From Oscillibacter sp. ER4 (GTDB taxonomy: Bacteria; Bacillota; Clostridia; Oscillospirales; Oscillospiraceae), in assembly GCF_000765235.1 (NCBI RefSeq), contig NZ_JPJG01000018.1, positions 1-64,000 on the forward strand: a stretch of DNA of 64,000 nucleotides, written 5' to 3'. Positions 20,827-32,455 of this stretch are shown here, piece after piece. Made by a program: the position numbers and the translations under genes. Numbering within the stretch: the first letter of the stretch is position 1; every line of letters begins with the position of its first letter. The notes under the pieces are model-generated. The model was not told the origin of the DNA. It did not search any database and worked only from the letters and a program-made list of their open reading frames with translations.

Positions 20827-21204
20827 ATGGAGCTTAAGACGCAGGTCCATAATATTCTGCCGCTGTATGACGAAAAGTCGCGCGTGCTGATCCTGGGCTC
20901 GTTCCCGTCGGTTAAGTCAAGGGAGGCGGCGTTCTTCTACGCGCACCCGCAGAACCGCTTCTGGCCGACGCTCGCCGCTGTTCTGGGCGAGGAAACGCCG
21001 AAGACGGTCGAAGAGAAGAAAGCGATGGTCCTGCGCCGCGGCGTCGCCATGTGGGACACCATCGGCTCATGCGAGATCGTGGGATCGTCGGATGCGAGCA
21101 TCACGAACGTTGTGCCGAACGATCTGTCTGTCATTTTGGATGCGGCGGACATTCAGGCCATCTTCTGCAATGGCGGCACGTCCTACGCCTGCTATAAAAA
21201 ATAG
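20827..21204 (+). pseudogene. DNA-deoxyinosine glycosylase (uracil-DNA glycosylase superfamily), 5' part, interrupted
   Basis: The 125 codons carry the front of a hypoxanthine/uracil DNA glycosylase: RVLILGSFPSVKSREAAFFY, AHPQNRFWPTL and GVAMWDTIGSCEIVGSSDAS. The frame stops (TAG) at the left end of an integrated element. The missing 3' part lies at 32317-32448 beyond the element. Joined at the 10-bp repeat the reading frame runs ...SYACYKKYCRAKLG... for 166 codons, a normal family length. The present truncated product lacks the conserved C-terminal LPSTSPAN motif and is probably inactive. Confidence 0.9.
21194..21203 (+). repeat. Element left attachment repeat (attL core)
   Basis: ATAAAAAATA occurs here and again at 32315-32324. 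The two copies flank the integrase-bearing element, and collapsing them restores the host gene's frame exactly. Confidence 0.85.
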
Positions 21205-21341
21205 TAGAATTTTTCTCTCTGCCGCAAGATGATTTTAGGTCGGTTGAGGGATTAGAAAACGCCGGAAACCCGCATAAACTCTATGTTTTTGCGCGTTCTC
21301 GGCGTTTCTTTTATCGCCTGTGTTAGTGGTGCTTTTTCGGT

Positions 21342-21363
21342 AAATGGTGCCCAAATGGTGCCC
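21342..21363 (+). repeat. Tandem 11-bp repeats, likely integrase arm sites (left)
   Basis: AAATGGTGCCC occurs twice in tandem at 21342-21352 and 21353-21363. A third exact copy lies at the other end (32167-32177). This placement near both ends matches arm-type sites bound by the N-terminal domain of Tn916-like integrases. Confidence 0.6.
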
Positions 21364-21417
21364 AAATCCCACGCGGGGCTATAAAACGGTATAAGAAGCG
21401 GTAAAGAGATACAGCGG

Positions 21418-22722
21418 TTAAAGCTCTAAATCGCTGCTCTTTTTCTTTGCCGCGCTCTTTGCTTTCTTCGGCTCGGCTTTCTCTGCCTTTGCCGGGTCTG
21501 CCTGTTTGACCGCCCCATGATAAGCGTCTAAGACTTCTTTTTTGCGTTCAAGCCGCACGTCCACATAACGGGCGGTAACAGCTTCAAAGTTCATAGACAG
21601 CCCAAGCGATACGCCGATACCCGCAAGTGTATGTCCTAACACTTCGCCTACGGTGTAGAAGTCGCCTGTCAGTTGGTGCATATTTGTAGCTGCTGTATGG
21701 CGCAAATCGTGAAAGCGGATATGCGGCATATCCAAATCTTCAAGCAGCTTTCCAAACTGGGAAGATACCCACGACGCGGAGATAGGGGAACCGTCCGGCT
21801 TCGCTACAACAAGGTCATTGTCATAGTAAGGCTTTCCGTCCTTTTCTGCCTGTTCGCGCTGCGCTTCCTGCATAGCAAACTGTTTGAGAAAGAACGGGCG
21901 GGCAAGCTCTGTGATAGGCAGCTTTCGCCCGTTGGATTTCGGCGGTGCCATTTCCTCAATGACTTTTGTTTTTGGCGGTACCTTAAAGGGTAGCTGCTCG
22001 GAAACGTCAAAGGTGTTGTTTTCCAAATCCACATTGCGCCAACGCAAGCCCAGGATTTCAGAACGGCGCATACCGTAAAGCCCGCCTAAGATAACGGGCA
22101 TTTCCCAAACGGTACCCTCGACGCGCTGCATAAGGGCTTTTACCTGTTCCGGCGTGTACGGGTCGGGGGTCTTGTCGCTCTTTCCAAACTTCGTAAGCGT
22201 GTCCTTTGCTGCGTTTGTTTCGATATAGCGGTATTTCCGGGCATGGCTCAACGCCACGCTCAAAACACGCTTTGCCCCGGCTGCGGTGGACGGTTTCAAG
22301 CCTTTGTCAATAATCTGCTGAAACATTTTGTCTACCATAGCGGGGGTAAGCTGATTAAGGGCAACGCCGCCGATATATGGTGTGATGTAGTTTGCAATCG
22401 TTCTTTTGTACCCGTCGTAAGTAGAGGGGCGCAAGTTCACTCTTGCATAGCTTTCTACCCATTCATTCAGATAGCTTGCAACGGTCTGTTTCCGCTGTGA
22501 AGCGATAGACGCAATCTGTCCCGGATTATGGAGCTTTGCTTTCATCTCTGCTTCATGCTGCGTTGCTTCCTTTTTTGTTGGAAAGCCCTTTTTTGAATAG
22601 GTTTTCTTTTCCCCATTCGGGGCGGTGTACTTTATATTCACGTCGTAAACTGTACCCGGCCGCCCGGTCAGTACGCCGTTGCTGTCGCGTTTATTCTTAA
22701 CCTGCCTTGTTGATATAGCCAT
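21418..22722 (-). CDS. int: Tyrosine integrase (Tn916-type)
   Basis: The 434-residue recombinase integrates and excises the element. An N-terminal arm-binding domain (VYDVNIKYTAPNGEKKTYSK, KKGFPTKKEATQHEAEMK) is followed by a SAM-like core-binding domain (VASYLNEWVESYARVNL). The catalytic domain has the first Arg in GLYGMRRSEILGLRW, HxxR in FHDLRHTAATNM, the later His in EVLGHTLAGIG, and the nucleophile Tyr in VTARYVDV. A Lys/Ala-rich C-terminal tail of about 30 residues follows. It is immediately downstream of the excisionase gene (3 nt apart), as in Tn916. Confidence 0.93.
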   Translation of the reverse strand: MAISTRQVKNKRDSNGVLTGRPGTVYDVNIKYTAPNGEKKTYSKKGFPTKKEATQHEAEMKAKLHNPGQIASIASQRKQTVASYLNEWVESYARVNLRPSTYDGYKRTIANYITPYIGGVALNQLTPAMVDKMFQQIIDKGLKPSTAAGAKRVLSVALSHARKYRYIETNAAKDTLTKFGKSDKTPDPYTPEQVKALMQRVEGTVWEMPVILGGLYGMRRSEILGLRWRNVDLENNTFDVSEQLPFKVPPKTKVIEEMAPPKSNGRKLPITELARPFFLKQFAMQEAQREQAEKDGKPYYDNDLVVAKPDGSPISASWVSSQFGKLLEDLDMPHIRFHDLRHTAATNMHQLTGDFYTVGEVLGHTLAGIGVSLGLSMNFEAVTARYVDVRLERKKEVLDAYHGAVKQADPAKAEKAEPKKAKSAAKKKSSDLEL

Positions 22723-22725
22723 AGC

Positions 22726-22962
22726 TTAACCTCCCTGTCGTGCCGGGGGCTTCGCTGTCGTCTTTGCCCTGTGGTACCAGTCCCAGATTGCAGCGTCAGC
22801 TATCAAACGACGGTTTCCATTTTGTATATATTCAAGCTCGCCACTATCCATAAGCTCGCGCAGTTTATTTTCCCCGATACCGCTAATCTTGCTCATTTGC
22901 TCAACGGTCTTTAACATAGGGAATACAGGGATAGCGGGGCTTGCTGTTTCCTTTTTTGCCAT
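22726..22962 (-). CDS. xis: Excisionase-family DNA-binding protein
   Basis: The 78-residue winged-helix protein (TVEQMSKISGIGENKLRELM, then NGNRRLIADAAIWDWY) resembles Tn916 Xis. Such proteins bend DNA at the element ends and steer Int towards excision. It has a strong site (gaaagggggtattttcct) and lies 3 nt upstream of int. Confidence 0.85.
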   Translation of the reverse strand: MAKKETASPAIPVFPMLKTVEQMSKISGIGENKLRELMDSGELEYIQNGNRRLIADAAIWDWYHRAKTTAKPPARQGG

Positions 22963-23389
22963 AGGAAAATACCCCCTTTCATAAATGGCTAAAAAGTCAA
23001 GTTACAAAAAGTGGGCTTTAACCGGGCGGCTGTTAGCACAACCTCGCGGGAATTGCACCCCTGCTCATTTAAGGCAGCTTTACCCATTGCCTGCGACGCT
23101 CTGAACGCTCGGACTGTGGCTGTAAAGGCTTATCTCCCCTCAATGCGTGTTGTCGCCCGCAAGCTGCTAACTTGCTTCCCGTCGCGGTGTTTCTCGCTCG
23201 GCTTTTCCCGATAGAGGAATAGCGTCATGGCGCACCCTCCGTATGGCTCGGCGCAAAAAGGACGTACCCGGTTTGCCCTATACTGCGTCGCCGTTATCTT
23301 GCGTCGCTTTCTTTGTCAAGGAACATACGGGGCTGCTGCGGATTGATACGAAACGGAAAAGGGGTTAAGACGTTTCGGTATCGGTGCAG
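22963..23389. other. Spacer between xis and the Orf8-like gene
   Basis: There is no large gene in this 427-bp stretch. It is GC-rich and has several short inverted repeats. The only candidate is the 32-codon frame on the minus strand at 23130-23228. It may be untranslated leader for xis-int. Confidence 0.5.
23130..23228 (-). CDS. Possible small protein of 32 residues
   Basis: An ATG at 23228 is preceded by cggagggtgcgcc, a good ribosome site at correct spacing. It opens a basic peptide beginning MTLFLYREKPSEKHRDGK that stops at 23130. Nothing more identifies it. It may be a leader peptide or chance. Confidence 0.3.
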   Translation of the reverse strand: MTLFLYREKPSEKHRDGKQVSSLRATTRIEGR

Positions 23390-23647
23390 TTATTCAACCC
23401 TAAATGTGAGGATTGCCCTCATTAGTCTTGCTTGCAGCCGTTGGCGAATATCCTCGTCAACGCCAAAATAGACGTTTCCGCGCTCGTCGCAGAGCTTCCG
23501 CATGGAAAGGCTCGCTATGTAACCACTAAAATGCTGCAAGACAATTTTCATAGCGTCCGGGTCGCCCTTTGTCGCTGCCACAATGACAGGATAGGGAACA
23601 AGGGCAACGTCCGGGAAGTCAGATTGTTTACCATTCGTCCCATTCAT
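23390..23647 (-). CDS. Helix-turn-helix protein, Tn916 Orf8-like
   Basis: The 85-residue protein resembles the HTH_16 family of conjugative transposons: YPVIVAATKGDPDAMKIVLQ HFSGYIASLSMRKLCDE (read in two parts) and a GVDEDIRQRLQARLMRAI end. Together with the Orf7-like protein it forms the regulatory pair that raises transcription of transfer and excision genes in Tn916-type elements. Its start overlaps the end of the upstream gene by 20 nt. Confidence 0.75.
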   Translation of the reverse strand: MNGTNGKQSDFPDVALVPYPVIVAATKGDPDAMKIVLQHFSGYIASLSMRKLCDERGNVYFGVDEDIRQRLQARLMRAILTFRVE

Positions 23648-24068
23648 CAGCGTGTTCCTCCAAATATTTCTTCAAGATTTCAAAAGAGCTTGTCCGTCTG
23701 TACTGTATCGTGCTGCGCGACGTATTGAATAACTTTCCAATCTCCACGTCGGTCATGCCCTCGAAATAGTACAGCATGATAGCTTTCCTTTTTTCTTCCG
23801 GCAAAGTGCGGATTGCTTCAAGCAGCAGCTTCGGCGTGATTTTCTTTCCTGCCTGCTGATAGCTCGGCTCGGCTTCTTCGTCTTGAAAATACTTATCAAG
23901 CGTATAAAGCTGTCGTTCCTCATGCAAGGCAAGGTCGGAAAACGACACTTCCTTTGCTCTGCGACGCCGGATTTCCTCGTGGGCGTTGCAGGCTTCGTTG
24001 TGCAGCACCCGTTTACAGAAACTTTGAAAGATACATTGCTTCTGAAATTCCACGCGATTAGGTTCCAT
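23628..24068 (-). CDS. Sigma-70-like regulator, Tn916 Orf7-like
   Basis: The 146-residue protein from ATG 24068 has the perfect ribosome site aaaggaggtgagaac; a longer frame to 24191 lacks one. The C-terminal part is a region-4-like HTH: LLEAIRTLPEEKRKAIMLYY FEGMTDVEIGKLFNTSRSTI (read in two parts), followed by QYRRTSSFEILKKYLEE. In Tn916 the counterpart, Orf7, drives the transfer and excision operon. Confidence 0.8.
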   Translation of the reverse strand: MEPNRVEFQKQCIFQSFCKRVLHNEACNAHEEIRRRRAKEVSFSDLALHEERQLYTLDKYFQDEEAEPSYQQAGKKITPKLLLEAIRTLPEEKRKAIMLYYFEGMTDVEIGKLFNTSRSTIQYRRTSSFEILKKYLEEHADEWDEW

Positions 24069-24425
24069 GTTCTCACCTCCTTTCGTGTTGAAAGGTGGCG
24101 GTACCTCCCCTTTTCGCGGGATAATACAGGCGATTTTTTCAAACGCCGAATGAAAGCGAAACTTTTTTGAAAAAACCTCCCGAAAATGCAAAATGCGCCT
24201 GTCTGCAAGATGCAGACAAGCGCAAAGGAATTGTAAGCGGTATTTAGATGATTTGACAGTTCATATATGAGGGTAGAAGTGTTCCCGGCGGCGGTCGGGC
24301 TTTTTTTGATAAGCTAAAAGATATGGCGATATAGAAAAAGGACATGGCGATACCTCCTTGATACCGCCGTATCCTCAAAAAAGGGCGACTTTAATACACC
24401 CCCCGTTATCTTATTTTTCAAAAAG

Positions 24426-24466
24426 AAAACGGCGGTTTTGAGTAAATATTTCAAAACCGCCGTTTT
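24426..24466. terminator. Strong bidirectional terminator-like hairpin
   Basis: The perfect 16-bp stem aaaacggcggttttga / tcaaaaccgccgtttt with a 9-nt loop divides the regulator genes from the ars-like module. Confidence 0.8.
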
Positions 24467-24556
24467 ATCTGCCTACATTCGGCAGTTTTGTTGTTTTACA
24501 TAGCATTAAATCGCTATTTGAATTATTGATAATAAGGCGTAAATTTGATATTAAAT

Positions 24557-24940
24557 TTATTTTTCGGAAACGATTTTTTGTAACAGTTTTTGCACGTTTT
24601 CTGTTTTCAGCACTTTCCCCGTAGATACTACTTTGTTGTTGACAACAAGAGCAGGTACACTCATAACGCCATATTCCATAACCTTTTTCAAGTCCGTAAT
24701 ATATTCTACTTCTACGGAAATCCCCATTGCTTTAACGGCGGATTGTGTGTTCTCATAAAGAGCATGACAACACCCTGAACCTAATACCTTGATACAGCAA
24801 ATTCTGCCTTGTATGTCTTGACAACAGTTATTCAAATTTTCCGGTTCAACTGTTTCAGACACGGAACAGTTACCATTGCAAGTACAAACAGGAGCGTTTA
24901 TTTCTTTTTCTTTCTTCTTTCCAAAACCAAATAATGTCAT
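24557..24940 (-). CDS. Thioredoxin-fold small redox protein with Cys-rich N-terminus
   Basis: The 127-residue protein starts at ATG 24940 with the site ggaggtaattatt. The front has many cysteines (APVCTCNGNCSV, NNCCQDIQGRICC). The rest is a redox-active-disulfide-2 type thioredoxin fold (IKVLGSGCCHALYENTQSAV, then YGVMSVPALVVNNKVVSTGK), with a GCC motif in place of CxxC. Such proteins are common next to arsP-like permeases and ArsR regulators. It could shuttle thiol-bound arsenic or keep the permease's cysteines reduced. That role is inferred. Confidence 0.75.
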   Translation of the reverse strand: MTLFGFGKKKEKEINAPVCTCNGNCSVSETVEPENLNNCCQDIQGRICCIKVLGSGCCHALYENTQSAVKAMGISVEVEYITDLKKVMEYGVMSVPALVVNNKVVSTGKVLKTENVQKLLQKIVSEK

Positions 24941-24971
24941 AATAATTACCTCCAAAAAATTTTATATTCGC

Positions 24972-25991
24972 TTATATTAACAAGTAAGAAATTGCATTGA
25001 AAAAATAGCCTACAAGAATAATTCCTATGGTACAAATTGCAATGAAAACACCAAGCAATTTAGGCTTTACGGCTTTTCGTAACATAATCATAGAGGGCAG
25101 CGACAGCGTGGTTACACTCATCATAAAAGACAGGACGACACCAAGTTGAGCGCCTTTTGCAAGCAAGGCTTCTGCAATCGGAATTGTGCCGAAAATATCC
25201 GCATACAAGGGAACGCCCACAATCGTCGCAAGGATTACGCCAAAGGGATTACCCGTACCAAGCACTTTGACAATAAAATCTTCGGGTATCCAATTATGGA
25301 TAAATGCACCGATACCTACGCCAATCAGTACATAGGGGGCAACCTTTTTTGCTGTTGCTAAAACCTGCTCCCATGCGTATTTGATACGGTCTTTGAAGTG
25401 TAGTTCTTCCTGCGGAACATCAAGGGTATTTGCATTGCGGATAAAACCCTCAACGTAGTTTTCAAGATGTAATTTCTCAATCAACGTGCCGCCCACAACG
25501 GCAATCACTAATCCAAGCACTACATAAAGGACAGCGACTTTCCAACCGAAAATGCTCATAAGAAGCACAAGAGAGCCGAGGTCTACCATAGGGGAAGAAA
25601 TCAGAAATGAGAACGTAACCCCAAGCGGCAATCCCGCGCTTGTAAATCCGATAAATAGCGGAATGGAAGAACAGGAACAAAACGGCGTTACTGTTCCGAG
25701 CAGCGCGGCGATACAGTTTGCACCCACACCATGAAATCTACCAAGTATCTTTTTTGTTCTTTCCGGCGGGAAGTAGCTTTGTATGTAGGATATAATCAAA
25801 ATCAGCACGCCGAGCAGCACCATGATTTTGATTGTGTCGTAGATGAAAAACTGAACGCTGCCGCCGACTTTCCCGGCGGTATCTAATCCGCAAGCATTCA
25901 ATAAATCACCTATCAAACGATTGAGCCAACTCATACCCAAAAGTTCGGTTTTGAAGAAATCCCAAATTGACTTTACAGTTTGCATAAACAT
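24972..25991 (-). CDS. ArsP/YraQ-family permease
   Basis: The 339-residue protein belongs to the PF03773 permease family. About eight to ten membrane segments are visible. The hallmark is GTVTPFCSCSSIPLFIG, with the paired Cys of the family, and a second half with [20 protein letters not shown]. ArsP members export trivalent organoarsenicals, and others move arsenite-related species, so metalloid efflux is the best guess. The start is ATG 25991 after aaggaggtct. It lies between the arsR gene upstream and the thioredoxin gene downstream, all on one strand. Confidence 0.85.
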   Translation of the reverse strand: MFMQTVKSIWDFFKTELLGMSWLNRLIGDLLNACGLDTAGKVGGSVQFFIYDTIKIMVLLGVLILIISYIQSYFPPERTKKILGRFHGVGANCIAALLGTVTPFCSCSSIPLFIGFTSAGLPLGVTFSFLISSPMVDLGSLVLLMSIFGWKVAVLYVVLGLVIAVVGGTLIEKLHLENYVEGFIRNANTLDVPQEELHFKDRIKYAWEQVLATAKKVAPYVLIGVGIGAFIHNWIPEDFIVKVLGTGNPFGVILATIVGVPLYADIFGTIPIAEALLAKGAQLGVVLSFMMSVTTLSLPSMIMLRKAVKPKLLGVFIAICTIGIILVGYFFNAISYLLI

Positions 25992-26004
25992 AGACCTCCT
26001 TAAA

Positions 26005-26028
26005 ATCGACACATTGCAATTTGTCAAT
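26005..26028 (-). promoter_or_regulatory. ArsR-type operator in front of the permease
   Basis: The imperfect palindrome ATTGACA-aattgcaat-(G)TGTCGAT has an ArsR-like half-site shape and contains the TTGACA -35-like box, 14 nt upstream of the permease start. A related half-site (TTGACAAACTTCGATATGA) lies in the arsR promoter. Confidence 0.55.
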
Positions 26029-26041
26029 ATATTAGTTTTTG

Positions 26042-26076
26042 TATAAGCCGCTTGCTGCCTACAAGCGGCTTATTGT
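26042..26076 (-). terminator. Hairpin after arsR
   Basis: The stem aagccgctt / aagcggctt is followed on the minus strand by a short T-rich tail. It may lower read-through from arsR into the permease gene. Confidence 0.55.
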
Positions 26077-26381
26077 TTACAGGAACAATTATCCGAACAA
26101 CCGGGAGAGAACTCCGTTATTTCGTCCAACAACTCTTTTGCTTTTTGTACTCCTTGCGGGTCAAAGGAATAATGCGTCCATTTGCCCTCTTTACGTCCCC
26201 GGACAATTCCTGCGTCGCAAAGTATTTTCATGTGATGTGATAGCGTCGGCTGCCCTATATGCAACTCGTCAAGCAATTCGCAAGCGCATTTTTCCCCGCC
26301 TTTGAGTAGCCCTAAAATCGTTAATCTATTCGCATCGCAAAAGGACTTGAAAATCCTTGCGCGTTTCTCATTCTCTGTCAA
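26070..26381 (-). CDS. arsR: ArsR-family metalloregulatory repressor
   Basis: The 103-residue winged-helix repressor has a metal-site-like CACELLDEL on helix 3, a recognition helix in GQPTLSHHMKILCDAGIV, and a Cys-rich tail (GCSDNCSCKQ) that could add ligands. The start is taken as TTG 26381 because AAGGAGG lies 8 nt upstream. The GTG at 26390 overlaps the ribosome site. It likely represses itself and the permease gene. Confidence 0.88.
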   Translation of the reverse strand: MTENEKRARIFKSFCDANRLTILGLLKGGEKCACELLDELHIGQPTLSHHMKILCDAGIVRGRKEGKWTHYSFDPQGVQKAKELLDEITEFSPGCSDNCSCKQ

Positions 26382-26404
26382 GCAATTCACCTCCTTGCTC
26401 TTGT

Positions 26405-26433
26405 ATTATACCCATCATATCGAAGTTTGTCAA
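26405..26433 (-). promoter_or_regulatory. SigA-type promoter of arsR
   Basis: Minus-strand TTGACA (26433-26428) and TATAAT (26410-26405) are separated by 17 nt, which is consensus. Confidence 0.85.
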
Positions 26434-26553
26434 TGCGTTTTTGGAAAGTTTACAACCGCTTTTGTATAATCGGCATTATTTAAGCTAACACTATGAACTG
26501 TGTAGACATATTCAAAAAGAAAGGAACAGTAAAATGTAGTTGGGTGAATTATT

Positions 26554-26907
26554 ATGGCAAAAAGACCAGTACCTTTGTATGACTTTGCAGCTTTCGGGCA
26601 AGCCATAAAAGCAGCGCGGACAGGCAGAAATGAAAGCCGCAAGAAAGTAAGCGACGAAATGAACATTTCCCCTTGCTACCTTGCGAATATTGAAAACAAA
26701 GGGCAACAGCCAAGCCTGCAAATCTTTTATGAGCTTGTAACCCGTTATGACATATCCGTAGACCAATTCTTTTTCCCGGATAAGACAGCGGAAAAATCGA
26801 CGCAAAGGCGGCAGCTCGACACGCTGCTTGACAGCATGAGCGATAAGGGCATACGGATTGTTACCGCAACAGCGAAAGAAATTGCAGAAGTCGAAAACGA
26901 AAACTGA
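26554..26907 (+). CDS. XRE-family helix-turn-helix regulator
   Basis: The 117-residue protein has a Cro/CI-type HTH in its first half (FGQAIKAARTGRNESRKKVS, NISPCYLANIENKGQQPSLQ) and an acidic C-terminal region. Regulators of this kind sit upstream of mobilization genes in Tn916-like elements and control transfer. It diverges from the arsR promoter. The ribosome site (gggtgaattatt) is weak. Confidence 0.8.
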   Translation: MAKRPVPLYDFAAFGQAIKAARTGRNESRKKVSDEMNISPCYLANIENKGQQPSLQIFYELVTRYDISVDQFFFPDKTAEKSTQRRQLDTLLDSMSDKGIRIVTATAKEIAEVENEN

Positions 26908-27027
26908 ATAGGCTTAGGAAGCGTTGTAATCTTTTTGAGATTGCAGCGTTTTTCTTTTGCGTAAGTTTGGCAAAACGGGGCTTTCCGTTGTAGTAGGGAA
27001 TAAGGAAAAACTTTCATAGCAAGCATA

Positions 27028-27065
27028 GGAAGCGGGTACCCACTTCCGTATTTTCGCCCTCCTGC
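27028..27065 (+). other. Candidate origin of transfer (oriT)
   Basis: An inverted repeat of 10 bp (ggaagcgggt / acccacttcc, one mismatch) is followed by gtattttcgccctcctgcg. An inverted repeat plus a GC-rich strand just upstream of mobC and relaxase genes is the usual oriT layout for MOBP elements. The nick site is not established by sequence alone. Confidence 0.5.
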
Positions 27066-27137
27066 GCTGCGGCGCGTCGGTTGAAAATTGCTTGTTGGGA
27101 AGTGTCCCAAACCCTCGGAACGGAAAGGAGCGAAAGC

Positions 27138-27467
27138 ATGGACGGGCGCAAAAGGACGGTACAAATCAAATTCAGAGTAACGGAAGCAGAACGGGATTTA
27201 ATTCTTGAAAAAATGAAGCTCATACCCACCCGGAACATGGCGGCATATCTTAGGAAGATTGCCATTGACGGGTACATCATTCAAGTAGACCATAGCGACA
27301 TTAAGGCAATGACAGCGGAAATACAGAAAATCGGTGTCAACGTCAATCAGATTGCAAAGCGTGTCAACGCGACGGGCAGCGTCTACCAAGAGGACATAGA
27401 GGAAATAAAGGGGGTGCTTGCGGAGATATGGCGGTTACAAAGATTAAGCCTGTTAAAAGCACGTTGA
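27138..27467 (+). CDS. mobC: MobC-type relaxosome accessory protein
   Basis: The 109-residue protein has an N-terminal ribbon-helix-helix-like part (RTVQIKFRVTEAERDLILEK) and the MobC core (NMAAYLRKIAIDGYII, IQKIGVNVNQIAKRVNATG). It binds oriT next to the nick site and helps the relaxase. ATG 27138 has the site aaaggagcgaaagc. It overlaps the relaxase gene by 40 nt. Confidence 0.85.
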   Translation: MDGRKRTVQIKFRVTEAERDLILEKMKLIPTRNMAAYLRKIAIDGYIIQVDHSDIKAMTAEIQKIGVNVNQIAKRVNATGSVYQEDIEEIKGVLAEIWRLQRLSLLKAR

Positions 27468-28777
27468 GCAAAGCCCTTGACTATATCCAAAATCCAGATA
27501 AGACGGACGGGAAAATGCTTGTGTCCTCTTTCGGCTGCGCCTATGAAACGGCAGACATTGAGTTTGAATATACCCTGTCGCAAGCTCTCCAAAAGGGCAA
27601 CAATTTAGCCTTTCATTTGATACAGTCCTTTGAGCCGGGGGAAGTGGATTATGAAACCGCCCACAAAATCGGGCAGCAGCTTGCCGACGCAGTAACCAAA
27701 GGGCAGCATGAATATGTCTTGACGACGCACATTGACAAAGGACACGTTCATAACCACATTATTTTCTGCGCGGTCAATTTCGTAGACCACCACAAATACA
27801 ATTCCAATAAGCGCAGCTATTACGGCATACGGAACATGAGCGACAAGCTGTGCCGGGAAAATGGATTGTCTGTTGTCGTTCCCGGCAAAGGGAGTAAGGG
27901 AAAGAGCTATGCAGAGTATCAGGCAGAGAAAACGGGAACCAGTTGGAAAGGCAAGCTGAAAATTGCCGTTGACGCACTCATTCCCCAAGTATCAAGTTTT
28001 GAGGAACTACTACAACGGCTGCAAGCAGCGGGCTATGAGATAAAACCGGGGAAATATGTATCGTGCCGCGCTCCGGGGCAGGAACGGTTTACCCGCCTTA
28101 AAACCCTCGGCGCAGATTATACAGAGGAAGCCATAAGGGAACGGATAAGCGGCAAACGCGCCCGCGCCGGGAAAGCTCCACGCGCAGATCGGGGCGGCGT
28201 CAGTCTGCTTATTGATATTGAGAACAGTATCAAAGCAGCGCAGAGCAAAGGTTATGAACAATGGGCGAAAATCCATAATCTGAAACAGGCAGCTAAGACC
28301 ATGAATTTCTTGACGGAACATAAGATTGAACAGTATGCGGATTTAACGGCAAGGATAGCGGAAATCCAGACAGAGAGCGAACAGGCCGCAGACGCATTGA
28401 AGAACGTCGAAAAGCGTCTTACGGATATGGCGGTCTTTATCAAGAATATTTCCACCTACCAAAAGACAAAACCTGTTTATGACGCATACCGTAAGGCAAA
28501 GAATAAAGAGAAATACCGCGCCGCACATGAGCGCGATATTATCCTCCATGAAGCCGCTGCAAGGGCTATGAAAGCGGCGGGCGTTACCAAGTTCCCCAAC
28601 CTCGCTGCGCTGCAATCAGAGTATGAAGCCCTCCAAGCGCAGAAAGAAGCCCTTTACGCCGACTATGGCAAGCTCAAAAAGCAAGTCCGGGAATACGACG
28701 TTATCAAGCAGAACATTGACAGTATTTTAAGACAGGACAGAGAGCCGGAACGGGGCAAGGAAACAGAGCGCGGATAA
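27428..28777 (+). CDS. MOBP-type relaxase
   Basis: The 449-residue relaxase nicks oriT and pilots the single strand. The N-terminal relaxase domain has a candidate catalytic Tyr in ALDYIQNPDKT and the three-histidine metal motif THIDKGHVHNHIIFCAVN. A region of coiled coil and charge follows (about 290-449). It overlaps the mobC end and probably is translated by coupling. The primase or helicase domains found in larger relaxases are absent, as usual for mobilizable elements. Confidence 0.9.
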   Translation: MAVTKIKPVKSTLSKALDYIQNPDKTDGKMLVSSFGCAYETADIEFEYTLSQALQKGNNLAFHLIQSFEPGEVDYETAHKIGQQLADAVTKGQHEYVLTTHIDKGHVHNHIIFCAVNFVDHHKYNSNKRSYYGIRNMSDKLCRENGLSVVVPGKGSKGKSYAEYQAEKTGTSWKGKLKIAVDALIPQVSSFEELLQRLQAAGYEIKPGKYVSCRAPGQERFTRLKTLGADYTEEAIRERISGKRARAGKAPRADRGGVSLLIDIENSIKAAQSKGYEQWAKIHNLKQAAKTMNFLTEHKIEQYADLTARIAEIQTESEQAADALKNVEKRLTDMAVFIKNISTYQKTKPVYDAYRKAKNKEKYRAAHERDIILHEAAARAMKAAGVTKFPNLAALQSEYEALQAQKEALYADYGKLKKQVREYDVIKQNIDSILRQDREPERGKETERG

Positions 28778-28812
28778 ATTATGTTTTGCACAATCATAAG
28801 ATATTTCTGATA

Positions 28813-28841
28813 TTGATTTATTAGTTCATATAGTGTATACT
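28813..28841 (+). promoter_or_regulatory. Promoter of the short-ORF transcript
   Basis: TTGATT and TATACT are spaced by 17 nt, about 50 nt upstream of the ATG at 28894. It marks the change from the relaxase gene into AT-rich cargo. Confidence 0.7.
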
Positions 28842-28893
28842 GTGAGTACATACAAATAAGATTTAGAAAACGAATTGAGAGAGGTGGTAAACG

Positions 28894-28962
28894 ATGATTA
28901 AAGTATTATATCCGTCATGTGATTTTATGCGCAAATCGAGTTGCCGCCACTTTCAGTTTTAG
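28894..28962 (+). CDS. 22-residue peptide gene
   Basis: A strong ribosome site (gagaggtgg, 7 nt spacing) precedes an ATG that encodes the basic, two-cysteine peptide MIKVLYPSCDFMRKSSCRHF plus QF. It has its own promoter upstream and its own terminator downstream (28989-29036), so it is an independent transcript of about 190 nt. It may be a toxin, a signalling peptide, or a leader. No family was recognised. The next gene is a bacteriocin-like secreted protein. Confidence 0.5.
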   Translation: MIKVLYPSCDFMRKSSCRHFQF

Positions 28963-28988
28963 AGGCAAAGAATTAAAACCGTAAGTAT

Positions 28989-29036
28989 AGCGCATAATCC
29001 AGAGAAATTATTATTGGATTATGCGCTTTATTTTTT
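28989..29036 (+). terminator. Terminator of the short-ORF transcript
   Basis: The perfect 13-bp stem agcgcataatcca / tggattatgcgct is followed by a T-rich tail. Confidence 0.85.
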
Positions 29037-29077
29037 GGGAACAAATTTATGGACAGTTAAAGAAAGGACGTATTACT

Positions 29078-29791
29078 ATGAAAAAAATTATAAGTATTCT
29101 TTTGGCACTCTCTATGCTTTTCTCGTTAAATACAGTAGCTTTTGCAGCAGAAAGCGGTACAACAGATGAACTGCAAATTGTTGAAGAAAATGGAACAAGA
29201 ACAGTTTCTCTTAATGATGGTGAATTGACATATATTGTTACATATGATACAGTAAACAATACAATTTGTGTTGCTCAAAAAGATAATAATACTGGTCTTG
29301 TTGAGTATGGCACTGTAGAATCTACGGAGATAACTGAAAATTCACTCGTAAGTGCTCGTTCAAAAATTCATCAAGATACTTTTTGTAATTACGAGTATGA
29401 TATTTATACTGGAAGTCCAAATGAATGGAATTTAGAACGCCCTAAAGAAACTGGCTCTGGACAAAATTATTTTATGGTGTACGAAAATTCCTCGAATAGC
29501 AGTCAGTTAGATAGCTGGTTTAATGCTGTCAACTCATTAAATGACAAGGAATGGCAAGCAGTTTCAAGCTACGGTGTCGCTTTAGTCACAAGTGCCGCAG
29601 CAGGCTTTATTTCTGGTATGGCAGTTGCAAGTGGTGGAATTTTAACACCGGGAGCGATTACAGCAATCGTAGCAGCGACAGGCGCTACAGGTACAGCGGC
29701 AGTATTGCTTACCCAAGTTGGTACACAATGTAATGTTTGTTTAAGAGCATATTGGAATGTGTATAATGCTACAGATAATATGCATTTCTAA
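29078..29791 (+). CDS. Secreted geobacillin-26-like protein (putative large bacteriocin)
   Basis: The 237-residue precursor has a clear signal peptide (MKKIISILLALSMLFSLNTV, cut near AFAA-ES). A polar middle follows, then a Gly/Ala-rich hydrophobic stretch (about 165-215; VALVTSAAAGFISGMAVASG, AIVAATGATGTAAVLLTQVG) and a CNVC near the end. This layout resembles the geobacillin-26 family of large heat-labile bacteriocins. The next gene encodes a small two-helix membrane protein, as an immunity protein would be. Base composition is much richer in AT than the rest of the element, a sign of separate acquisition. Killing activity is not proven by sequence. Confidence 0.5.
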   Translation: MKKIISILLALSMLFSLNTVAFAAESGTTDELQIVEENGTRTVSLNDGELTYIVTYDTVNNTICVAQKDNNTGLVEYGTVESTEITENSLVSARSKIHQDTFCNYEYDIYTGSPNEWNLERPKETGSGQNYFMVYENSSNSSQLDSWFNAVNSLNDKEWQAVSSYGVALVTSAAAGFISGMAVASGGILTPGAITAIVAATGATGTAAVLLTQVGTQCNVCLRAYWNVYNATDNMHF

Positions 29792-29807
29792 ATACAGGAG
29801 GGAAATA

Positions 29808-29990
29808 ATGAAGTACATGGTAAAAGGAATTGTTTGGATAGTACTTATTACCATTGGTTTGCTTTTGGGTCCACCATTGCTTATAGGATTTGTTTGGTGG
29901 AAAGTCCTTATTTTTGGTATTGCTTGTTATCTAATTGGACATGGCGCATATAAACTGTTTAGAGTGATTGACAAACACTATAATACTTAA
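29808..29990 (+). CDS. Small membrane protein, candidate immunity protein
   Basis: The 60-residue protein has two hydrophobic segments (GIVWIVLITIGLLLGPPLLI and VWWKVLIFGIACYLIGHGAY) and a basic tail. It has the strong site caggagggaaata and begins 16 nt after the bacteriocin-like gene, so the two form one operon. Size, topology and position fit bacteriocin self-protection. The family was not recognised. Confidence 0.5.
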   Translation: MKYMVKGIVWIVLITIGLLLGPPLLIGFVWWKVLIFGIACYLIGHGAYKLFRVIDKHYNT

Positions 29991-30003
29991 CTCCTATAAC
30001 AAC

Positions 30004-30055
30004 AAAAAGCCGGGACGCAGACAGTCGGTAAAGACTATCTGCGCCCCGGTTTTCT
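30004..30055 (+). terminator. Terminator of the bacteriocin-like operon
   Basis: The stem ccggg-a-cgcaga / tctgcg-c-cccgg with a long loop is followed by a T-run. Confidence 0.7.
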
Positions 30056-30175
30056 TATGGGTGCTGTTTTGAAATGTTACGCAATAGAACGCCATTTTAA
30101 GGGGAAAAGGTATCAAGTATCGCCTAAGTGGTTTTCACGCTCGGAAAACCATATAAATCCAGGCTGTTTTTGCCC

Positions 30176-30541
30176 TTACTGCGTAACAAGAGTACGCTTT
30201 TTTCTCATGCGCTCGGCTGCCTGTCTACGGGTAATGCGTTTCCGGCAGTCCGGGCAGTATTTGACGCTGTTCGACTTTGAAGCAAAGAACGCGCCGCACT
30301 CGGTACAACGCTTTTTATCCTCGGTCTTGAAAAGCTCCGCGTAGAGCAGCTTATCAATGGGAAGTACAGCAGTCAGAAACCATTTGCAAAGAAGCGAATA
30401 GGAAATAAGCTGCGGGCAGACACATTCCTCTCCGTCGTCAAGCAAAATGCAGTTTCCGCTATCGCAGTTGCAGCATTCCCGTTTTACAAGGCTGTTGACT
30501 TTCCGGCTTTGGGGCGGCGAAAGCCGCTTTAGCCCGGTCAT
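30176..30541 (-). CDS. Cysteine-rich VLP-type mobile element protein
   Basis: The 121-residue protein has an N-terminal Cys cluster (CCNCDSGNCILLDDGEECVC), the VLP signature (FLTAVLPID) and a zinc-ribbon-like end (KRCTECGAFF, KYCPDCRKRITRRQAAERMR). Proteins of the Cys-rich VLP family are frequent in conjugative and mobilizable elements of Clostridia, with unknown function. It overlaps the upstream gene by 4 nt (ATGA). Confidence 0.8.
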   Translation of the reverse strand: MTGLKRLSPPQSRKVNSLVKRECCNCDSGNCILLDDGEECVCPQLISYSLLCKWFLTAVLPIDKLLYAELFKTEDKKRCTECGAFFASKSNSVKYCPDCRKRITRRQAAERMRKKRTLVTQ

Positions 30542-30750
30542 ACTTCATCAGCGGCGAAAATAGCAAGCTCCGCATACTCGTTTTCCGTCAGCCCGTCCAC
30601 TTTGGAAAGGGTGCGCTTTGCCAATTCCCGCATATCTCCGTCCATATACGGCATGGCGGCGTTGATGTTTTCCATAACCTCACGCTTGCCGCCCTCGCTG
30701 TAAATGCTCATAAGGTTTGTTTCCTCAACGGTAAATCTATTCATGCTCAT
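30538..30750 (-). CDS. Transposon-transfer assisting protein (TTRAP-like)
   Basis: The 70-residue protein (MNRFTVEETNLMSIYSEGGK, then LAKRTLSKVDGLTENEYAEL) matches the small TTRAP family found in Firmicutes conjugative elements. It overlaps both neighbours by 4 nt, so the three genes form a translationally coupled set. Confidence 0.75.
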   Translation of the reverse strand: MSMNRFTVEETNLMSIYSEGGKREVMENINAAMPYMDGDMRELAKRTLSKVDGLTENEYAELAIFAADEV

Positions 30751-31638
30751 ACCTCCATTTCATGATTTTTCGATTTTGCCGCCGCCTTTTTCGGGGTGGT
30801 CTTTGCTTTGTCTGCTTCAAGCTGCGCCCGAAGAGAGGGGCGGGGCTTCTTTATGCTCCTGTCCCTGTTCTCGTCTTTGCTTATCAGCGCATACACGCCA
30901 TGCTTGCCCTCCATAGCGGAGAACGAAAGGCTCTTATACGGCAGCATGGAAAACAGGCGATCCATGTCCTTATCCGTTGCAAGCCGGAGAAAATACGGGG
31001 AAAGCTCTGCGGAAAAATGGCTTTTGTCCGGGCTGTTCGGCTTATCGAATTTCTTCATTTCCTCCACCACGCGGTGGGCTTCCGTTTCAATCCGGCAGTC
31101 ATGCAACGCGGCGATATGCTCCTTGAAGTCCCCCGGCCTGTGCTGCTTGCGGCTGTGCTGCTGCTCCCGCAACAAGGCTTTCAGTGCTTCCAGGTCGTTG
31201 GGCTGTGCTTCAAAGCGTTCAAACTTCCCAAGCTGCGGGTCTGGGTTCCCGTCAAAATACTGTCCGGCGGGCTGTGAGCGTTCCCCATGCTCATAAATCA
31301 AAGTATAGTTGTCGGCGAGTATGGATTTTTCGGCTACATCCCGGAAATGCTGCGGGTAGTCAAGTTCATAGAGGTTGCCTTTGAGCTTTCCGCGCTCTGT
31401 GCCTGTCAGTTCCACCGCATAGGCAAGGATTTTGTCACGGGTCTGTTCGCCGTAGAATCTCCATGTATTGTGCTGCCTTGTGTCCTTTAGGAAAACGTCG
31501 CGTTCCCGGACGCAGCAAGTCCCGGACGGGCGGGAGAACCACAAGAGCCGTTTATCCTCGGCGACGGGTCTTGCCGCCGCTTCCAGTAAAATCCGTTTAT
31601 CTATAGAAACGCGATTTTGAGGGTTTAGGTATCAATCC
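30747..31638 (-). pseudogene. 5'-truncated large mobile-element protein (DUF4316/DUF3849-like C-terminal part)
   Basis: The open frame runs from about 31638 (LNPQNRVSIDKRILLEAAAR) to 30747 without an ATG or ribosome site at the front. The alternative TTG at 31544 begins mid-domain. The body (LWFSRPSGTCCVRERDVF, RFYGEQTRDKILAYAVELTG, SPYFLRLATDKDMDRLF) resembles the C-terminal section of long ICE proteins of the DUF4316/DUF3849 kind. The Lys/Ala-rich tail ends in EMEV. The missing N-terminus suggests that the element arose from a larger ICE by deletion. The family name is given from memory and is uncertain. Confidence 0.55.
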
Positions 31639-31776
31639 CTTATCCGCTGAAAACCGCGTCCGCAAAGCCGCGTAAATCAAGGGCTTTTTCATGCCTACTG
31701 CGTAACAAAGGGCATGAAAAAAGCGGCGTTCCTGTTCTTCCTTGTGGGAAGTGAGAAACGCCGCCTGTGCGGTGCG

Positions 31777-32139
31777 TTATTCTGCTTCTTCGGCTATGAG
31801 GTCTTGTATGACTTCGCCAAAGTCTGCCGTAAAGGAAAAAATGAAGTATTCCAAAACGGCGGGGTCTGCGTCCATAGGCTCGGCTTCCTCGGAAAAGGGC
31901 AAGCCCATAAGCCCATAGAGCATTTTTATGATTTTGAACAGCTTCCCCCGGTCGGCGGGGGTGTTCATGGTAACAAGTACGTCGGTCAAGCGGTTTACGG
32001 TTTCCATGTCGCCGCCTGTCGTTACCCATACCATTTCTGCGAATGGCTGCGTGATTGCTCCGGTTACAAGGTTTACCTTATCCTTGCTGATTTCGCCGGA
32101 CGGGAGTATAATACCCTTGTCTAAAAGTACGTTTTTCAT
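31777..32139 (-). CDS. Conserved mobile-element hypothetical protein
   Basis: The 120-residue acidic protein (MKNVLLDKGIILPSGEISKD, VTTGGDMETVNRLTDVLVTM) has the strong site ataggaggacgac and is the right-most gene of the element. No domain was recognised. It is probably an accessory gene kept near the right end. Confidence 0.65.
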   Translation of the reverse strand: MKNVLLDKGIILPSGEISKDKVNLVTGAITQPFAEMVWVTTGGDMETVNRLTDVLVTMNTPADRGKLFKIIKMLYGLMGLPFSEEAEPMDADPAVLEYFIFSFTADFGEVIQDLIAEEAE

Positions 32140-32166
32140 GTCGTCCTCCTATAATTTGTGGTGCCA

Positions 32167-32177
32167 AAATGGTGCCC
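32167..32177 (+). repeat. Third copy of the 11-bp repeat (right arm site)
   Basis: AAATGGTGCCC is identical to the tandem pair at 21342-21363. A degenerate copy (tgtggtgcc) lies just upstream. An inverted 11-bp pair, AAGATGATTTT at 21226-21236 and its complement at 32186-32196, also marks both ends. Confidence 0.6.
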
Positions 32178-32314
32178 GGTCTTACAAAATCATCTTATAC
32201 GGAGATATGGCAAGATAAATGACGATATGCAGAAAACCTTGATTTTAAGCCATTTTCGCGAGGTTTTATAAACACTTGCGCGGGCTTATAAGAAGATTTC
32301 CGTCTATCAAATCA

Positions 32315-32324
32315 ATAAAAAATA
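32315..32324 (+). repeat. Element right attachment repeat (attR core)
   Basis: ATAAAAAATA is the direct repeat of 21194-21203. Confidence 0.85.
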
Positions 32325-32448
32325 CTGCCGCGCGAAGCTCGGGCGCGAGGCCGTCCAGCTTCCCTCCACCTCGCCGGCCAACGCCAGATGGACGAAGGAA
32401 AAGCTTGTCGAGGCCTGGGGCGCGGCACTGAAGCCGTATCTTCATTGA
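32317..32448 (+). pseudogene. DNA-deoxyinosine glycosylase, 3' part
   Basis: 43 codons read KKYCRAKLGREAVQLPSTSP, then ANARWTKEKLVEAWGAALKP and YLH-stop. The LPSTSPAN motif is the conserved C-terminal catalytic-loop region of this glycosylase family. It continues the frame of the 5' part at 20827-21201 exactly when the element is removed. Confidence 0.9.
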
Positions 32449-32455
32449 CGCGGCG

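Follow-up and report, generated by a model that had tools for sequence, protein, structure and literature searches.

Computational analysis of the window, a stretch of 64,000 nucleotides from Oscillibacter sp. ER4, revealed an AT-rich island in a mobile element, and within this island a gene of the geobacillin-26 (Geo26) family preceded by an intrinsic terminator; the carrier element and copies of it in other taxa were also identified (Table 1). On balance we consider it likely that the island is a bacteriocin-immunity cassette, led by a transcription attenuator and carried as cargo in a Tn1549-like element of gut Clostridia. A first-pass annotation of this DNA had described three compact units, namely a leader unit, a secreted protein and a small membrane protein, and all three are present at the places it gave for them.

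Table 1. Features of the cargo island and its carrier element (positions in the window).
Feature	Position	Strand	Details
Carrier element, deletion derivative	21194..32324	.	Direct repeat ATAAAAAATA at both ends
MobC, upstream of relaxase	27081-27467		NikA-like/MobC profile match
Carrier relaxase	27428..28777	+	PF03432, 123 bits
AT-rich cargo island	28779..29999	+	Directly 3' of relaxase stop, 5' of backbone terminator hairpin
Promoter-like TTGATT-N17-TATACT	28813..28841	+	9/12 consensus match, weak alone
Predicted RNA hairpin	28872..28958	+	3' codons of leader ORF pair with its own ribosome-binding site
22-codon leader ORF MIKVLYPSCDFMRKSSCRHFQF	28895..28963	+	Good ribosome-binding site AGAGAGGTGG upstream
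Candidate anti-terminator strand TTATGCGC	28925..28932	+	Copies part of terminator 3' arm
Intrinsic terminator, between leader ORF and toxin gene	28989..29036	+	12-bp perfect arms and U tract
Secreted geobacillin-26 family protein (putative toxin)	29078..29791	+	237 aa from ATG, ribosome-binding site AAAGGA
60-aa membrane protein, proposed immunity protein	29808..29990	+	Shine-Dalgarno (SD) sequence AGGAGGG, 16 nt after toxin stop

The GC content of the island is 34.8%, compared with 41-50% in the other modules of the element and 58-59% in the flanking chromosome. No stretch of equal length in the window has a lower GC content, in keeping with the deviating base composition that the first-pass annotation had pointed out. 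The span it had proposed, 28785-30055, captures a real island, but the actual limits lie at about 28779-29999. DNA alignments with related elements break off at 28777/28778, the relaxase stop, and pick up again at 30000, and the island is therefore cargo in a slot and not part of the backbone. It is absent from the related elements, and relatives with an empty slot are clean. One of them (G259) has just a few bases in the post-relaxase slot, and in Monoglobus (L018) and G189 the slot is filled by an unrelated small helix-turn-helix (HTH) gene. This cargo slot after the relaxase is new here. Relatives of the cargo (toxin, leader or cargo DNA) were not found in plasmid, phage and E. coli collections, nor were any found in a search of IMG/VR, and an Rfam search of the region from 26.0 to 32.5 kb returned sub-threshold chance matches only.

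Homology to the elements of Anaerostipes and UBA1702 runs from 21192/21193 to 32322/32327. The mobilisation module of the carrier, consisting of HTH, MobC, relaxase, Cys-rich VLP and TTRAP genes, is Tn1549-like, and the relaxase/MobC/Cys-rich VLP/TTRAP/ArdA-YodL order that marks such elements was found together with a tyrosine integrase, which was recognised from its ORF sequence alone. The element of Anaerostipes sp. 992a is 48.9 kb long and carries TraG-like, topoisomerase, ArdA/YodL and CHAP-domain genes. The window lacks the segment at 736667-773669 of Anaerostipes (37 kb, the conjugation module), with a 3-bp overlap at 31603-31605. Through this apparent 37-kb deletion the window's copy has probably lost self-transfer; it is possible that the junction at 31603-31605 is a misassembly instead of a real deletion.

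Other features of the element were noted. It splits a host ORF (20827-21204 and 32315-32455) that would read through the joined ends and that resembles, by eye only, a mismatch-specific uracil-DNA glycosylase. A second, milder AT-rich cargo (24423-26466, 41% GC) encodes an ArsP_1-type permease, an MTH895/ArsE-family thioredoxin and, as judged by eye, an ArsR-like regulator. This segment is only about 91% identical between copies that are otherwise >99% identical, which suggests module exchange. About 120 bp at 26998-27116, upstream of and into mobC, recur in inverted form (about 80%) several kb away, both in the longer element copies and in G189 and G259; the sequence may be a transfer-origin or regulatory repeat.

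The identical secreted protein is encoded in the same element in Anaerostipes sp. 992a (an isolate, on a 1.5-Mb contig), in the MAG UBA1702 and in an Oscillospiraceae MAG, and the surrounding element DNA of these copies is 99.6-99.98% identical over about 5 kb. The copies support the earlier suggestion of movement between gut bacteria, and with three other assemblies carrying the layout, the concern that it might be confined to this genome falls away. The proposed survey of the three-unit layout recovered the other copies of the same element; family-wide, only the pair of toxin and membrane protein recurs. It could be argued that the cassette is a decaying chance passenger without present function, as several relatives elsewhere are broken and the window's element is without its transfer module. 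We judge this very unlikely, since neither gene is damaged, each has a good ribosome-binding site, and four assemblies from different taxa encode the identical protein.

A profile search assigned the secreted protein to the NCBIfam family NF035925.1 (Geo26A_fam) at 80.3 bits, with residues 34-228 aligned over profile positions 5-197, against a curated cut-off of 40 bits for the whole-protein score. This was the search that the first-pass annotation had asked for, and its geobacillin-26-like identification holds; the match to a non-bacteriocin family that would have spoken against it did not turn up. In a Pfam search no family covered the protein. The public model already assigns the family name, and we regard the window protein as a credible addition to this known family of bacteriocins, encoded on a mobile element of gut bacteria.

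To our knowledge only two proteins of the geobacillin-26 family have been assayed, both from thermophiles, and geobacillin 26 itself has reportedly been shown by experiment to be antibacterial. The window protein is probably antibacterial as well. A signal peptide (MKK, a hydrophobic stretch at 4-22 and the end AFAA) was recognised by sequence and hydropathy. The hydropathy profile also confirmed the Gly/Ala-rich hydrophobic tail noted earlier, which occupies the C-terminal third and peaks at 166-184 and 193-211. An AlphaFold2 model made with seven sequences is of moderate confidence (mean pLDDT 62) and contains beta strands at 31-80 and four helices at 138-231, regions in which pLDDT is about 70-89; this arrangement agrees with the published description of both tested proteins. 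A fold search with the model found no solved structure at E <= 0.001, and the DnaK-like top matches were set aside as meaningless at TM-scores of about 0.15.

The geobacillin-26 family is rare. Above the cut-off, NF035925 matched 1 of the 295 genomes searched from the order, 3 of the 398 from the phylum (this genome being part of each count) and none of the 14 control genomes. Weak family matches (L004, L013, L014, L015 and L084) were not counted as members. Family members can diverge strongly (24-29% identity); the window protein is 56-59% identical to its Vallitalea homologues (L009, L010), and these, together with two Oscillospirales fragments, form with it a subgroup having the C-terminal end (Y/N)ATDNMHF. 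The Vallitaleaceae Geo26 gene at L009 (4682-6523) is divergent and lies just upstream of the ribosomal protein S10 operon; the window's element is also near the S10 operon, and the shared location is probably a coincidence. Three further loci (L017, L080 and L081) encode multi-helix membrane proteins of 172-191 aa with weak matches to the Geo26 profile (about 24-26 bits), which are possibly related membrane-anchored forms or immunity-like proteins. In G595 about 8 kb separate one of them from a true Geo26 gene.

We also considered whether the secreted protein might be a Geo26-fold cell-surface or element-maintenance factor, for example one acting on recipients in conjugation, and not a bacteriocin. 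Such a role would suit a family that is very divergent and has only two members known to have been assayed, a gene directly behind that of the relaxase, and the existence of weakly related integral membrane proteins. It is nevertheless improbable, given that the score is twice the family cut-off and that the signal peptide and hydrophobic C-terminal region are as in the tested members. The homologues at L009 and L010, moreover, belong to non-gut genomes and have no such element beside them in the stretch read, and at loci with a broken toxin the neighbouring membrane gene is retained, as immunity predicts.

The evidence for immunity, which favours the bacteriocin reading, comes from the gene that follows that of the toxin. 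Of the two helices earlier ascribed to its 60-aa product, one (8-26) is clear and the second is weaker in a hydropathy scan, and profile searches gave no family match. Inspection covered all other loci at which the Geo26-type gene is convincing, and in all seven that have a readable downstream gene a small membrane-protein gene was found 3' of the toxin gene. In Vallitalea (L009, L010) these genes encode proteins of 114 and 116 aa and start within about 10 nt of the toxin gene, and at L003 a 117-aa protein related to that of Vallitalea is encoded 112 nt downstream. The downstream proteins of L011 (63 aa), L082 (59 aa), and L083 and L012 (62 aa each) have two helices. At a further locus, L005, the downstream copy is frameshifted, and toxin and membrane gene are both damaged. 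Among 165 long ORFs of the fetched DNA, a set that includes the Geo26 loci themselves, only seven had a comparable small membrane-protein gene as neighbour. This pairing of toxin and membrane protein across the family, established by computation, is a rule that is new here.

The downstream membrane proteins are of at least three unrelated kinds. Sequence comparison showed homology between those of Vallitalea and G133 (E 4e-8) and between those of L082 and L083 (E 1e-5). Homology of the 60-aa protein to the downstream protein of L011 was rejected for lack of any detectable sequence similarity, and with the remaining downstream proteins its aligned identity is only 16-24%, leaving it with no clear relative. 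The case for its role is accordingly built on position. At three loci the toxin is broken and the membrane gene is open: the toxin has an internal stop at L083, is missing about 100 aa at L012 and is a C-terminal fragment at L003. A membrane gene intact beside a broken toxin points to immunity, as protection is expected to be retained after the weapon is lost. The conserved position across the family thus strengthens an immunity role for the small membrane gene, and the layout suggests, in a small sample, that the 60-aa protein probably protects its producer. More tentatively, and with the balance of our judgement somewhat against it, toxins of the Geo26 family might generally come paired with an immunity protein, a single toxin fold being countered by several unrelated membrane proteins of two to three helices; in gut Clostridia such a pair would have become conjugative cargo under an RNA-gated 22-codon attenuator.

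Upstream of the toxin gene, the promoter, short peptide ORF and terminator of the first-pass annotation were found, the promoter-like sequence being weak (9/12). Together they have the layout of an attenuator, in which a short ORF, here with predicted translation, is followed by an intrinsic terminator and then by the toxin gene. The terminator arms (28989-29000 and 29016-29027) are followed by TTTATTTTTT; a pattern scanner missed this terminator because its loop is longer than 8 nt. Leader and terminator together fold at -55.5 kcal/mol, with z = -6.2 (-6.23) against shuffles. Taken without the terminator, the hairpin at 28872..28958 has an MFE of -29.3 kcal/mol (z -2.75), and none of 200 shuffles was as stable. 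In this predicted fold the ribosome-binding site of the leader is paired with the leader's codons for CRHFQF. The 8-nt exact match of TTATGCGC to the terminator 3' arm has a p of 0.012 against dinucleotide shuffles. When a ribosome is placed at the leader start or stop codon, TTATGCGC pairs with the terminator 5' arm (an 8-bp anti-terminator, P 0.84-0.91) before the 3' arm is made, provided that the SD hairpin is open. Whichever modelled position the ribosome takes, the terminator is favoured over the anti-terminator at equilibrium, so that an attenuation switch would have to be kinetic.

A second promoter-like sequence, TGGACA-18-TACTAT (29050-29079, 9/12 match), precedes the toxin gene, and the terminator after the 22-codon ORF is strong. 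Both would fit an independent transcript, with the 22-codon unit specifying a small peptide or regulatory RNA and the toxin operon having a weak promoter near 29050. We regard this arrangement as rather unlikely, if less so than the other alternatives weighed above, since the -10 box of the second candidate would run into the start codon of the toxin gene, with no space left for a ribosome-binding site or an untranslated leader, and since the leader ORF shows pairing with its SD and repeats part of the terminator arm. The sole plausible toxin promoter would then be the one upstream of the terminator, which makes attenuation the simplest reading. Attenuation and its signal are thus inferred, and the 22-codon ORF is a plausible cis-acting transcription-attenuator leader. 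The earlier label of regulatory peptide is apt for this regulatory leader layout, but not in the sense of a signalling peptide, as neither an export signal nor a receptor is present.

The leader unit is absent upstream of L009, L010, L011 and L082 and hence belongs to the window's element. Its known copies are near-identical, so there is no covariation to draw on. A degenerate pattern of the leader's C-terminal residues was found in none of 290 other Clostridia genomes beyond two chance-like matches, and one of these, on examination, had no open frame around it. A common resistance-gene leader was considered and rejected on these grounds, the C-terminal pattern occurring among 291 genomes only in G000 and at the two chance-like places.

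In the mechanism that we propose, transcripts starting at the promoter upstream of the 22-codon leader would mostly be halted at the intrinsic terminator, and read-through would allow the toxin and the membrane protein to be expressed as one operon. The leader would act in cis, ribosome movement opening the hairpin that hides its own start and so freeing a strand able to compete with the terminator. The toxin would leave the cell through the Sec pathway, with cleavage following AFAA, and its hydrophobic helical C-terminal region would attack the membrane of related competitors; the 60-aa protein would stay in the membrane of the producer and block this action. Membrane action via the C-terminal helical region has been proposed for geobacillin 26 and alicyclobacillin 24 (Ali24). 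If the more tentative family-wide reading is true as well, the mobile element would arm a new host and switch the weapon by translation state. A mobile narrow-spectrum antibacterial passing between families of gut Clostridia would bear on competition and strain resistance, and the conserved downstream membrane gene would be a direct immunity candidate for the entire geobacillin-26 family.

Several known systems invite comparison. The window protein is similar to geobacillin 26 in length (237 and 245 aa, respectively), signal peptide, beta-rich N-terminal part and helical, hydrophobic C-terminal part, and differs in coming from gut Clostridia, in being encoded on an integrative element and in that its activity is predicted. 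Ali24, which is about 25% identical to geobacillin 26, was found in a secretome; the purified protein inhibited other Alicyclobacillus and raised propidium-iodide uptake and staining (PMC13176240). Compared by its published description and not by sequence, Ali24 is likewise a secreted Geo26-family protein with a predicted C-terminal membrane helix, encoded on a mobile replicon, in its case a plasmid. Its host, in contrast, is a thermoacidophile, and the main text of that paper mentions no immunity and describes no leader (PMC13176240). No immunity protein was found reported for either geobacillin 26 or Ali24 in the open-access literature.

The carrier shares with the Tn1549 family (the pMG2200 vanB element and Monoglobus OY725736) the order HTH-MobC-relaxase-Cys-rich VLP-TTRAP-large ArdA/YodL protein and a DNA identity of 72-84% in the mobilisation module, but holds the proposed bacteriocin cassette in the post-relaxase slot where the vanB element and Monoglobus have other genes. 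Leader-peptide transcription attenuators exist upstream of Gram-positive resistance genes, and the window has the same order of promoter, short ORF, terminator and putatively regulated gene. Here, however, no known leader sequence was matched, and the downstream gene is that of a probable bacteriocin. The suicin clusters of Streptococcus suis encode different bacteriocins and lie on a different ICE family, the Tn5252 type, and yet they too are bacteriocin genes carried as ICE cargo (PMC7168690).
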